A stretch of 64,000 nt of DNA, from the NCBI RefSeq assembly GCF_003945595.2, contig NW_024104762.1, positions 1 to 64,000 of the forward strand. The letters are read 5' to 3'. The position numbers and the translations under genes were made by a program. Positions 1,946-13,610 of the stretch are shown here, in pieces. Position 1 is the stretch's first letter, and each line of letters opens with the position of its first letter. The stretch comes from Pipra filicauda (Eukaryota; Chordata; Aves; Passeriformes; Pipridae). A model generated the notes under the pieces. It saw only the letters and a program-made list of their open reading frames with translations, was not told the DNA's origin and ran no database searches.

Positions 1946-2177
1946 GGCTACTGCAGGCCAAGGCCTTGGGGCTGCAGGTGTTCCATGGTGGCACAGCGCT
2001 GAGGGATGGCAGGGTGGTGACGAGTGGTGGCAGAGTGCTCTCCATCACTGCTGTCCGGGAGGACCTGCTGGAAGCCCTGGGAGAAGCCAACAGGGGCGTG
2101 GCCACCATCCACTTCCAGGGAGCCACGTACAGGAGGGACGTCGGCCAGCGGGGCCTGCGGCTGCTCCGACAGCCCCT
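1946..2177 (+). CDS. GART-like exon: C-terminal part of GARS module
   Basis: The translation starts GLLQAKALGLQVFHGG and contains RDGRVVTSGGRVL and a TIHFQGATYRRD segment. These match the last GARS exon of GART (32542-32773) over the same 232 bases, at roughly two-thirds identity by eye. The GARS C-domain residues around GGRVL are kept. The donor is CT|GTATGT. Reading past this donor does not meet an immediate stop, whereas GART itself reads straight into TAG at the equivalent place. A CR1 fragment ends about 48 bases before the acceptor. Confidence 0.87.
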
Positions 2178-11100: not shown

Positions 11101-13610
11101 GGGGCCTGGGAGTCCTCACAGGGGCCTGGGAGTCCTTCCCAGCTCGTCAGGGAGGGAAACAGCCCAGAGTTAGGAAGGGATTTAAACTGCTGGTTTGGGT
11201 CTGAGATTGCAGCCCATGAGCTTCAACCTTTGGCTGAAATCAGTGAGACTTCAGGTTCTGCAAAACACATGAACTTATCCCCTGGGCTTATCCCTTCTCA
11301 GAATCATAAAATCCCAGACTGGTCTGGGTTGGGAGGGACCTTAAAAATCATCCAGTGCCACCCCCTGCCATGGGCAGGGACACCTTCCACCAGCCCAGGT
11401 TGCTCCAACCTGGCCTTGGACACTTCCAGGGATCCAGGGGCAGCCACAACTTCTCTGGGAAACCTGGGCCAGGGCCTCCCCACCCTCCCAGCCAGGAATT
11501 CCTTCCCAATATCCCATCTATCCCTGCCCTCTGGCAGTGGGAAGCCATTCCCATTTTCCTGTCCCTCCAGGCCCTTGTTTAAAGTCCATCCAAGTCCCTC
11601 TCCAGGTCTCTTCAGACACTGGAAGGGGCTCTGAGGTCTCCCCAGAACCTTCTCTTCTCCAGAGTGAAAACCTGTGTCTCATGTTGTGCTGAATAATCCC
11701 ACAATCATCAAGGCTGGGAGAGACCTCCAGGATCATCCAGTCCCACCCCAGCAGGATCACCCCCAATCCATGTCCCCAAGGGCCACATCCAGACACCTCT
11801 GGGACACTCCCAGACACAGGGACTCCTCCACCTCCCTGGGACACTTATTCCAAGGCCTGATCATTCCTGCAGGGAAAAATTGTTTCTAATCTCTGATCTG
11901 AACCTGCCCTGGGGCAATTTTAGGCCATTTCCTCTCCTCCTCTCCCTTGGGACGTGAAGGAGTGTGGCCCCCACCTCACTCATGGAGTGCCCTGGAATGA
12001 ATCCAGTTTGTTCCTCTTTGCTGCCCAGGTTGTTGCCCTCAATCCCACCCAGCTGTTCCCATGAATGGTTTTGCTGTTGGAATGTTCCAGGTGATTGACC
12101 ACAAGTTGTACGGGAGTCGCTCGGAGTTCGACAGCACAATCGACCGAGTGCTGGAGGAGTTTGCTGTGGAGCTGGTCTGTCTGTCAGGATTTATGAGGGT
12201 TTTGTCCAGCCCTTTCCTCCGAAAATGGAAAGGTAAGAAACTGTAAGTGTAGAAGGGAACCCATACAGGGATGGTTGGTCTCACCAGGACTCCCCTGCCG
12301 GAGTTCTGTCCTTTGGTTAATCCCTCAGCCTCGCTGGCTCTGAGGACATTCCAGCAGGGGGGCTGCCCTGTGCTTCCAGTCCTTCTGGCAGTGGGATCCT
12401 GGCTGTGGATTGGCACAGAAACCCCTTGTGCTGCATCAGGAGTGACATGGGGCAGAGACAGGGCACGGACTGGCTCTGCTGCCTCCCCTGGGAAGGGCTT
12501 TGATCCCACCCTCTGCCAAGGAGCTCTGCTGGGGGGTCCTGCTGAACTCACTCCCTGCAGTTTCCTGTTAGAAAAAATGGGAGAGAAACTGATTTCTCCT
12601 GGAAGAGCAGAATTCCCTCAGACCAGGCCAGAGGTGCTCAGAGCTGTTTGGAACCACTGATCTCATCTCACTTATATTTTTTAAGGAAATTCAGTTCAAA
12701 TTATCATTTCTTCTCTTTTTTTTTTTTTTTTTAACTCCTCTCTAATGTCCAGGGAAAATTTTGAATGCTTCTCCCTCACTTTTTCCACTCATCAAGGATG
12801 GAAATGCCCCTCAGGAGCCCCCACAAAGTGGATTCAAGGTCACAGGCTGCACCGTGCATTTTGTCCTGGTGAGTGTCTTTAGGAAAAGGAATTGGCTTTT
12901 TTCTTTCCTTTCTGAAGGCAGAGGCAGGCAGAGGGAGCAGGGAGGTGTGGGAACCTTGGGGTTGTTACCAGTAAAAGGTGTGGGGTTGTGTTGTATTTGG
13001 GGTCCCCTTTTCTTCCTTTGTATTTTGGGGTGATTTTTGCAGTTTCTCCCACTCTCAGCACTGGCCCGGAGCCTGCCATCCCTGATGTCCCCCTGGGGTC
13101 ACCGAGGTGTCTGTTGGGCAGGGGGCACCTCTCCAGCCTGCCATCCCACGTCCCTCCCTGATGTCCCCCGGGGTCACAGAGGTGTCCCTTGGGCAGGTGG
13201 TCCCTCTCCAGGTGCACTCTGAGCCTCCTGCCCACGACCACCCGTGTGCCCACCGAGATCTCTGCCCCGTCAGCATCACCCAGAACCTCCCTGAGCCGCT
13301 CAGCACCCCCTCTAAGCCCCCACCTGTCCCATTCCAGGAGGACTCCGGCGCCAGGGCCGTGATCCACCGGGAGCCCATCCCCGTGCGGGCGGAGGACACG
13401 GAGCAGGCGCTGGCGGAGCGGGTGAAGGAGGCCGAGTGCCGCGCCTTCCCCGTGGCCCTGCAGCTCGTGGCCAGCGGGGCCGTGAGCCTGGGAGCCGATG
13501 GAAGAACCTCCTGGAAGCAGGAGAGCCAAAGTCTGGGACTGCACGGGGAGAAGGGAGACTGCACGTCCTCCCTTGTGGCTCCGGAGCCTCCGGAACACGG
13601 TGGGGAGTAG
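1946..13610 (+). CDS. GART-like paralogue (GARS end-AIRS-transformylase), 5' part off window; probable pseudoenzyme
   Basis: Twelve exons are visible: 1946-2177, 2301-2395, 3143-3252, 4976-5174, 5998-6249, 6911-7063, 9199-9405, 10346-10486, 10797-10927, 12091-12232, 12753-12868 and 13338-13610 (TAG at the end). Every exon has AG/GT flanks and the same phase as its counterpart in the GART gene on the other strand. Eight of the twelve have exactly the same length; the others differ by 3, 6, 9 or, in the last exon, 90 bases. Joined, they leave one open frame of 682 codons plus stop after a 2-base codon remainder. The protein aligns to GART from the end of the GARS module to the C terminus. Many active-site residues are replaced (see the module entries), so catalysis is unlikely. 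The conserved frame argues against simple decay. Upstream GARS exons are not seen in 1-1945 and should lie to the left. It could still be a pseudogene too young to have stops, but its divergence makes that unlikely. Confidence 0.87.
2301..7063 (+). CDS. GART-like exons: AIRS-like module, first five exons
   Basis: This covers exons 2301-2395, 3143-3252, 4976-5174, 5998-6249 and 6911-7063. AIRS (PurM family) closes the imidazole ring of AIR using ATP. Compared with GART on the other strand, SGTDGVGTK has become CQTKGLGAK (Asp to Lys), CVND has become CVNA, FFLDYF has become FFLSYF, and GETAEMPG has become GQALSQLPG. These changes remove the acidic residues expected to bind nucleotide and metal. 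Structural segments such as [14 protein letters not shown] and [14 protein letters not shown] are almost unchanged. The exon at 2301 is the most diverged yet keeps its exact length of 95 bases. The 5998 exon is six bases longer than its partner and is very GC-rich. Confidence 0.85.
2696..3057 (+). mobile_element. CR1 3' fragment, third subfamily
   Basis: Contains the AGTGCCCAGCCCTGGAGGTG block and ends GATTCTGGGATTCTGTG. Preceded by an AATA/poly-A run at 2655-2695. Confidence 0.85.
3704..3815. repeat. ~55-bp AT-rich tandem repeat
   Basis: Two to three diverged copies of a unit with GGATCAGGATAAGTTGAGC and TATTTATATATTGG, in a GART-like intron. Confidence 0.7.
4375..4700 (+). mobile_element. 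CR1 3' fragment
   Basis: Starts in GGGGCTCCAGGAGAGCTGG and ends in CCAACCCACACCATTCCATG. Confidence 0.85.
5690..5950 (+). mobile_element. CR1 3' fragment
   Basis: Contains GAGAAGCTGTGGCTGCCCCT and GGTGGAAGGTGTCCCTGCCC; ends about 45 bases before a GART-like exon acceptor. Confidence 0.8.
6478..6855 (+). mobile_element. CR1 3' fragment
   Basis: Begins TTCAGCCTGGAGAAGAG and ends with GGACTTTATGATTCC, about 55 bases before the 6911 exon. Confidence 0.85.
7110..7600. other. Non-CR1 insertion-like sequence, unclassified
   Basis: From about 7110 the composition changes: a G-run, AT-rich sequence with TTTATTTTAACAATTTTG, then a purine-rich block to 7380. It directly precedes the minisatellite. 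It has the feel of a degraded LTR or other element but shows no clear ends or coding match. Confidence 0.3.
7600..8150. repeat. Alternating 98/99-bp minisatellite in a GART-like intron
   Basis: The marker GGGCCT recurs at 7615, 7714, 7812, 7911, 8009 and (as GGGCCC) 8107. Two unit types alternate, one with CATCAAATGTACC and GGCCTTTTCAGGGC, the other with CGTCAGATGTGCC and TATCTTTTCAGGAC, so the higher-order period is about 197 bases. About 5.5 units are present. Confidence 0.9.
8762..9085 (+). mobile_element. Two joined CR1 3' fragments
   Basis: 8762-8875 is a 3' end of the GGCCAGGTTGGACGGG type. It is followed directly by 8875-9085 of the AGTGCCCAGCCCTGGAGGTG type. The second appears inserted into or recombined with the tail of the first. 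Confidence 0.75.
9199..10486 (+). CDS. GART-like exons: end of AIRS module and linker
   Basis: Exon 9199-9405 encodes WKIPEIFCWLYKEGNLS, matching the AIRS C-terminal region of GART. In the conserved FNCG motif the Asn is replaced (FPCG). Exon 10346-10486 holds the variable linker and then KVKVAVLVSGTG, the first beta strand and glycine loop of the GAR transformylase fold, which are intact. The 9199 exon is three bases longer than in GART and the linker exon nine bases longer. The donor of the first exon is GTTAGC; GART also uses an unusual GTT donor here. Confidence 0.85.
10797..13610 (+). CDS. GART-like exons: GAR transformylase-like module with C-terminal extension
   Basis: This covers exons 10797-10927, 12091-12232, 12753-12868 and 13338-13610. 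GAR transformylase (PurN fold) uses an Asn-His-Asp set. GART has [10 protein letters not shown] and EEVDAG; this copy has NASPSLFPLI and EDSGARA. The Asn is kept, the His is Ser and the Asp is Gly. The HAH segment of the substrate loop is also lost. In contrast [19 protein letters not shown] and [13 protein letters not shown] are preserved. After GRTSWKQE the frame runs about 28 residues beyond the GART C terminus, to TAG at 13608-13610. The module should fold but probably does not transfer formyl groups. Confidence 0.86.
11085..11140. repeat. 20-bp tandem repeat
   Basis: About 2.7 copies of CTGGGAGTCCTCACAGGGGC. Confidence 0.85.
11300..11668 (-). mobile_element. CR1 3' fragment, antisense
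   Basis: Reverse-oriented copy: GGTTGGGAGGGACCTTAAAA near the left end and TTCTCTTCTCCAG at the right. Confidence 0.85.
11690..12060 (-). mobile_element. CR1 3' fragment, antisense, second subfamily
   Basis: AATCATCAAGGCTGGGAGAG and CAGACACCTCTGGGACACTC mark the reversed subfamily seen at 1455. It ends about 30 bases before the 12091 exon. Confidence 0.8.

Follow-up and report, generated by a model that had tools for sequence, protein, structure and literature searches.

The first 64,000 bases of contig NW_024104762.1 (C1113; 300,232 bases) in the 1.08-Gb, 1549-contig genome assembly of Pipra filicauda, called the window here, contain the gene for GART and, on the same contig, a diverged GART-like copy in inverted, tail-to-tail orientation to it. 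The copy has kept an intact reading frame and intact splice sites, its amino acid replacements are conservative, and catalytic residues of two of its domains are changed. We favour the view, with a probability of roughly 0.55 and as judged from sequence, that the copy is a retained pseudoenzyme paralogue derived from an inverted GART duplication, and that its product is likely a non-catalytic binding partner. According to PMC10912719, GART belongs to the enzymes of the de novo purine pathway, and the vertebrate protein is trifunctional (GARS-AIRS-GART).

Gene structure and divergence of the GART-like copy

A first-pass annotation of the window had described twelve exons with the intron positions and phases of GART, which join over 682 codons without stops or frameshifts. 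All 12 exons were confirmed, and the features that are needed below are the following:

1946-2177, plus strand: exon 1 (the first one within the window), end of the GARS_C domain
2301-2395, plus strand: exon 2, GARS/AIRS linker and AIRS N-terminus; nucleotide identity to GART 56%, the second lowest
3143-3252, plus strand: exon 3, conserved AIRS stretch replaced by CQTKGLGAK
4976-5174, plus strand: exon 4, AIRS
5998-6249, plus strand: exon 5, conserved AIRS stretch replaced by GQALSQLPGAC
6911-7063, plus strand: exon 6, AIRS_C; PIAEEG in place of HITGGG of GART
6950-6994, plus strand: tract of 45 nucleotides in exon 6, identical to GART (25378-25422), evaluated by codon permutation
9199-9405, plus strand: exon 7, AIRS_C; nucleotide identity 79%, the highest
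10346-10486, plus strand: exon 8, linker and start of the formyltransferase
10797-10927, plus strand: exon 9, formyltransferase
12091-12232, plus strand: exon 10, formyltransferase
12753-12868, plus strand: exon 11, formyltransferase; the motif reads NASPSLFPLIKD, H108S
13338-13610, plus strand: last exon, TAG stop, D144G, about 30 additional C-terminal codons
14920-14925, plus strand: candidate polyadenylation signal, the first AATAAA 3′ of the copy's stop (motif match)
16960-43140, minus strand: GART proper, 21 coding exons, 1003 codons, no internal stop

The 12 exons (1946-13610) join into 682 codons, which are followed by TAG at 13608-13610. There is no internal stop in the open frame, compared with 16 and 13 in the other two frames, and all 23 splice sites are canonical (GT at 11 of 11 donors, AG at 12 of 12 acceptors). 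The signs of a pseudogene that were sought in the 12 exons, i.e., stops, frameshifts and splice losses, were absent. The 11 introns are common to the copy and GART and identical in position and phase. Eight of the 12 exons have the same length as in GART, and three others differ by +3, +3 and +9 nucleotides, all three internal differences being multiples of 3. The last exon is longer than that of GART because the stop lies about 30 codons further downstream. Pfam revealed GARS_C, AIRS, AIRS_C and Formyl_trans_N in that order, each over its curated cut-off, and with collinear domains and common intron positions the copy is homologous to GART by descent. In intron 6 of the copy a unit of about 98 bp is repeated in tandem, in 5.6 copies (7604-8153).

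The earlier by-eye estimate, that about a third or more of the positions differ, was slightly exceeded: 384 of 647 aligned residues are identical (59%) and 263 differ. The identity to GART is 68% for the GARS_C piece, 61% for AIRS and 63% for the formyltransferase, and the nucleotide identity per exon ranges from 54 to 79%. With blastn of both gene regions 10 of the 12 exons were recovered; almost all of the remaining matches are found at several places, like dispersed repeats, and one (161-248) occurs once. The nonsynonymous distance (dN) between the copy and GART was 0.27-0.32 across methods. The synonymous distance (dS) was 0.48 with the Kimura two-parameter model (K2P) at fourfold sites, 0.73 with LWL85, 0.74 and 0.76 with two implementations of NG86, 0.90 with maximum likelihood (ML) under F1x4, 1.36-1.37 with other ML settings, and 1.50 with YN00. 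The copy is situated at the end of a contig, as might be the case for a haplotig, a chimeric contig or, more generally, an annotation of a chance reading frame. However, an artefact of this kind is hardly credible, because a protein identity of 59% is far outside allelic difference, the 12 exons are collinear with matching phases, and the copy shares its contig with GART.

A genome search with the copy's protein, which scores best candidates only and found 10 of the 12 GART exons at 49-70% identity, yielded 22 matches, all of them in the copy (12) or in GART (10), and no third copy elsewhere. Human sequences from the PDB were used as the third sequence for polarising changes. Of the 594 columns compared, the copy alone is changed in 125, GART alone in 32 and human alone in 66, while all three differ in 67 and all are the same in 304. 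If equal rates are assumed, 32 GART-only versus 66 human-only changes would speak for a duplication later than the bird-mammal split, though with three sequences the duplication cannot be rooted. Exon 10 of GART (21056-21197) deviates where the copy and human share HKLY, EFDS and VLEEF; here it is GART that has changed.

Catalytic residues of the AIRS and formyltransferase domains

For the AIRS domain the best 80 of at least 594 confirmed bacterial PurM loci, which are 54-64% identical to GART, were used as reference. Nearly invariant columns were defined as those that are at least 98% the same in the 80 bacterial PurM and in which human and GART agree (n = 69). The copy breaks 25 of the 69, and a single bacterial PurM breaks at most one, which partly reflects the way they were picked. 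The broken columns comprise 12 of 16 polar, 5 of 10 charged, 5 of 22 hydrophobic, 3 of 18 glycine and 0 of 3 proline columns. The losses include most of an 11-residue stretch and parts of SGTDGVGTK, and they extend to SSGxHSNG and HITGGG, among others; the conserved AIRS (PurM) motifs that mark a functional trifunctional GART are not intact in the copy.

The formyltransferase domain was compared with human, GART and seven microbial or phage PurN, nine sequences altogether; the seven were one locus from a scan and six picked among the 24 matches listed (55 and 667 records reported). In a scan of viral contigs with the bird formyltransferase no relative was found among 17 stretches, and a second scan gave one locus. 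The copy changes 7 of the 26 columns that are invariant in the nine sequences, including H108S, D144G and N13T. Positions 106, 108 and 144 read N, H, D in nine of nine sequences and N, S, G in the copy; N106/H108/D144 are presumably the catalytic triad of the enzyme.

As a whole, the copy resembles bacterial PurM and human AIRS (PDB 2v9y) in that it is over the NCBIfam cut-off TIGR00878 (purM; 269.4 versus 236.35 bits) and keeps 17 of the 22 nearly invariant hydrophobic columns. Likewise, it resembles PurN and human GAR transformylase (PDB 1mej, 1meo) in that it is over the cut-off TIGR00639 (PurN; 159.7 versus 150.1 bits) and has N106. Because both cut-offs are passed, it would be named an enzyme by the family scores alone. 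In contrast, the residues that differ indicate that it is not a spare enzyme, because the nearly invariant PurM columns are broken and H108S and D144G are present; a working duplicate enzyme was therefore rejected on the basis of the residues. The designation as a GART-like gene is apt as far as homology and the intact frame are concerned. However, it should not be taken to mean a second working GART, since the AIRS motifs, the histidine and the aspartate are lost, and since, beyond GART's own, no GARS exons upstream of this C-terminal part were found in the assembly. Compared to vertebrate trifunctional GART, the copy is alike in the visible domain order, in the intron positions and phases, and in more than half of the aligned residues, while it differs in the catalytic residues of both domains, in the longer C-terminus, and in that GARS N-terminal exons were found for it neither in the window nor in the genome search.

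Constraint on the copy and competing explanations

Neutral evolution was simulated starting from the 647 GART codons, with 300 replicates per setting. At a distance d of 0.24, which is half of the fourfold K2P value and the lowest estimate for the copy's branch, 8.8-9.7 stops were expected, and at d 0.37 12.4-13.4, whereas none was observed. In each of the four settings at these two distances 0 of 300 replicates were free of stops. The neutral probability that all 46 splice bases are kept was 2.6e-5 at d 0.24 and 1.3e-7 at d 0.37. A long-dead pseudogene was rejected, by zero stops compared to 9-13 under neutrality and by the intact splice sites.

The replacements give a similar picture. At 431 sites at which GART and human are the same, the copy has 126 replacements with a mean BLOSUM62 score of -0.07. 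Neutral means were -0.61 to -0.84 (standard deviation 0.10-0.18; six settings with 400 replicates each), and no neutral replicate was above the observed mean, the nearest being -0.072 at d 0.1. The changed sites are 52 of 205 hydrophobic, 10 of 56 glycine, 4 of 18 proline, 24 of 70 charged and 36 of 82 polar ones; at d 0.24 the neutral expectation is attained by the polar class alone (44% versus 40%), and at d 0.37 all five classes are below it. Conserved polar and charged sites were changed more often (60/152) than hydrophobic and glycine sites (62/261; p 0.001).

The codon alignment and the dN/dS ratio (omega) that the first-pass annotation had proposed were determined by ML at the 431 codons, with dN 0.193-0.196 and dS 0.81-1.15. 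Omega of the copy was 0.34-0.48 if dS was split equally between the branches and 0.17-0.24 if all of it was put on the copy's branch. When the ratio is fixed to that of a neutral copy and the branches are taken as equal, the log-likelihood falls by 13.7 (F1x4) or 26.6 (F3x4) units. Because stops are absent, splice sites are kept, replacements are conservative and omega is below 1 with equal branch lengths, the results support constraint on the copy during most of its history, a reading from one species in which omega depends on the sharing of dS. The intact coding frame would thus have been under constraint, as for a pseudoenzyme. The earlier claim of an inverted duplicate under selection therefore holds for most of the copy's history, while a recent death is possible.

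According to this alternative, the copy was constrained for long and lost its function lately, so that stops, frameshifts and splice losses have not yet accumulated. The changed active-site residues, the many private replacements and the unseen 5′ exons would all fit with it, and a neutral stretch of d 0.065 is still compatible with zero stops at the 95% level, or of d 0.033 if the splice sites are added. However, d 0.065 covers roughly a quarter of the branch leading to the copy even at the lowest estimate of 0.24, and the replacements are more conservative than under neutrality. A recently dead pseudogene is thus a real competitor, albeit considerably less probable than a retained pseudoenzyme.

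Several observations weigh against a retained, constrained copy. Neutral replicates without a stop do occur at d 0.1 (1 and 4 of 300). Omega rises to 0.67-0.96 if only a quarter of dS is assigned to the copy, and dS itself varies with the method, from 0.48 to 1.50, which is also the range on which the designation of the duplication as old rests. Private replacements are about four times as frequent in the copy as in GART (125 versus 32 of 594 columns). The changes do not follow conservation: AIRS sites that are conserved also in 7lvp were changed in 47 of 151 cases versus 23 of 76 not conserved, and with the columns grouped by PurM conservation the changed ones number 25 of 69 (nearly invariant), 19 of 91 (intermediate) and 27 of 70 (variable). 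An AlphaFold2 model of the copy from a two-row alignment had a mean pLDDT (predicted local distance difference test) of 31.8 and was left unused. In addition, the copy may be 5′-truncated, with first exons and promoter unseen, the alternative being an assembly gap.

The situation at the 5′ end is as follows. About 353 of 430 GARS residues are outside the 12 exons, and because the window begins at base 1 of the contig, exons upstream of the 12 would be outside the window. A tblastn search with GART over the window revealed no GARS exon in 1-1945. The genome search in which the first 433 GART residues were the query, again among best candidates, found 11 places, all on C1113, of which ten are GART exons and the other is exon 1 of the copy. 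Such a search does detect exons as diverged as these, as the 10 of 12 GART exons recovered with the copy's protein indicate. In the first 30 kb of a second contig, C1190, which is thought to face the copy, comparison with GART gave chance-level matches only (best E 0.023 per exon and 0.11 for the whole protein). Hence a GARS ATP-grasp domain of the copy is absent from the window, and no second set was found genome-wide or in C1190:1-30000, which makes a 5′ truncation possible. These results also bear on the idea that what was kept is only the function of GARS, or else some new activity of the 5′ part outside the window, and that AIRS and formyltransferase are a passive or scaffolding tail. The GARS_C piece is over its Pfam cut-off and is the part closest to GART, but it is only 57% identical to human, no better than the other parts, and no N-terminal or ATP-grasp exons of GARS were found in the genome beyond GART's own. 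It is therefore regarded as unlikely.

A last alternative is a neutral copy, the frame of which was held open by gene conversion from GART. Inverted neighbours can convert in general, and the 45-nucleotide tract in exon 6 is identical beyond chance: the run was reached in 0 of 5000 codon permutations, and for the run of identical codons p was 0.0006, conditioned on amino acid identity. This suggests at least one short gene conversion between GART and the copy. However, the longest identical runs in the other 11 exons are 7-25 nucleotides, at the nucleotide identities per exon given above, and a single short tract is insufficient to hold 682 codons and 23 splice sites open, so that this explanation is very improbable.

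The preferred explanation, a retained pseudoenzyme, would be as follows. The 12 exons would be the 3′ part of a paralogue born by inverted duplication of GART, located, to judge by the contig ends, between GART and DNAJC28. After the duplication the active sites of AIRS and of GAR formyltransferase would have been lost while the protein-coding state was kept, with selection acting on the frame, splicing and non-polar core residues. The protein, if expressed, would fold like GART, in whole or in part, and act via binding; the simplest role would be to serve, without catalysis, as a partner of GART or of other proteins in the purine pathway.

Neighbouring genes and possible biological role

TMEM50B and DNAJC28, neighbours of GART in human, match C1190 at 24-27 kb and 16-17 kb, respectively, both on the plus strand; TMEM50B has weaker matches also on C682, in 3 of 7 places. 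The plus-strand reading from 53372, MATNIEEILRSFVVSKFREIQGEQ, is presumably the start of SON. Provided that the human gene order applies, C1190 faces the copy with its base 1, and the order would be SON, GART, copy, gap, DNAJC28, TMEM50B, the stretch between base 1 of C1113 and base 1 of C1190 being absent from the assembly. The first 12 kb of C1190 contain many duplications with 91-99% identity, which are a possible cause of the assembly break. They carry GC-rich, low-complexity open frames beside DNAJC28; a MORC-like label given by eye to one of these open reading frames was dropped, since Pfam gave no significant match. In the window, a minisatellite of about 800 bp (49775-50574; 13-, 27- and 40-bp units) adjoins a GC-rich stretch upstream of the GART coding exons, and an 81-bp tandem repeat of about 7.7 copies (62998-63623) lies, by eye, within the coding part of SON.

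Vertebrate GART has a short form that arises from intronic polyadenylation. The GARS/AIRS intron of GART (29481-32541) is 3061 bp long and contains two AATAAA and five ATTAAA, while that of the copy (2178-2300) has 123 bp and neither motif. Because the intron is so short and free of these signals, an intronic short form is unlikely in the copy.

Pseudoenzymes from duplicated enzymes are a known kind, and the copy is like such paralogues in general in that, at the sequence level, the frame is kept and catalytic residues are lost. A limited literature search, as weak evidence, found no GART paralogue of this kind, and as far as could be seen a GART-derived pseudoenzyme is new. Birds run purine synthesis heavily for uric acid. 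It is a speculative and rather doubtful extension that in birds, or many of them, the second GART is a dedicated non-catalytic regulator of purine synthesis, which pairs with GART via the AIRS fold and tunes nitrogen disposal as uric acid. If the favoured explanation is true, this paralogue beside GART, with its frame kept and the known catalytic residues lost in two domains out of three, would suggest that the GART fold also serves a purpose other than catalysis.

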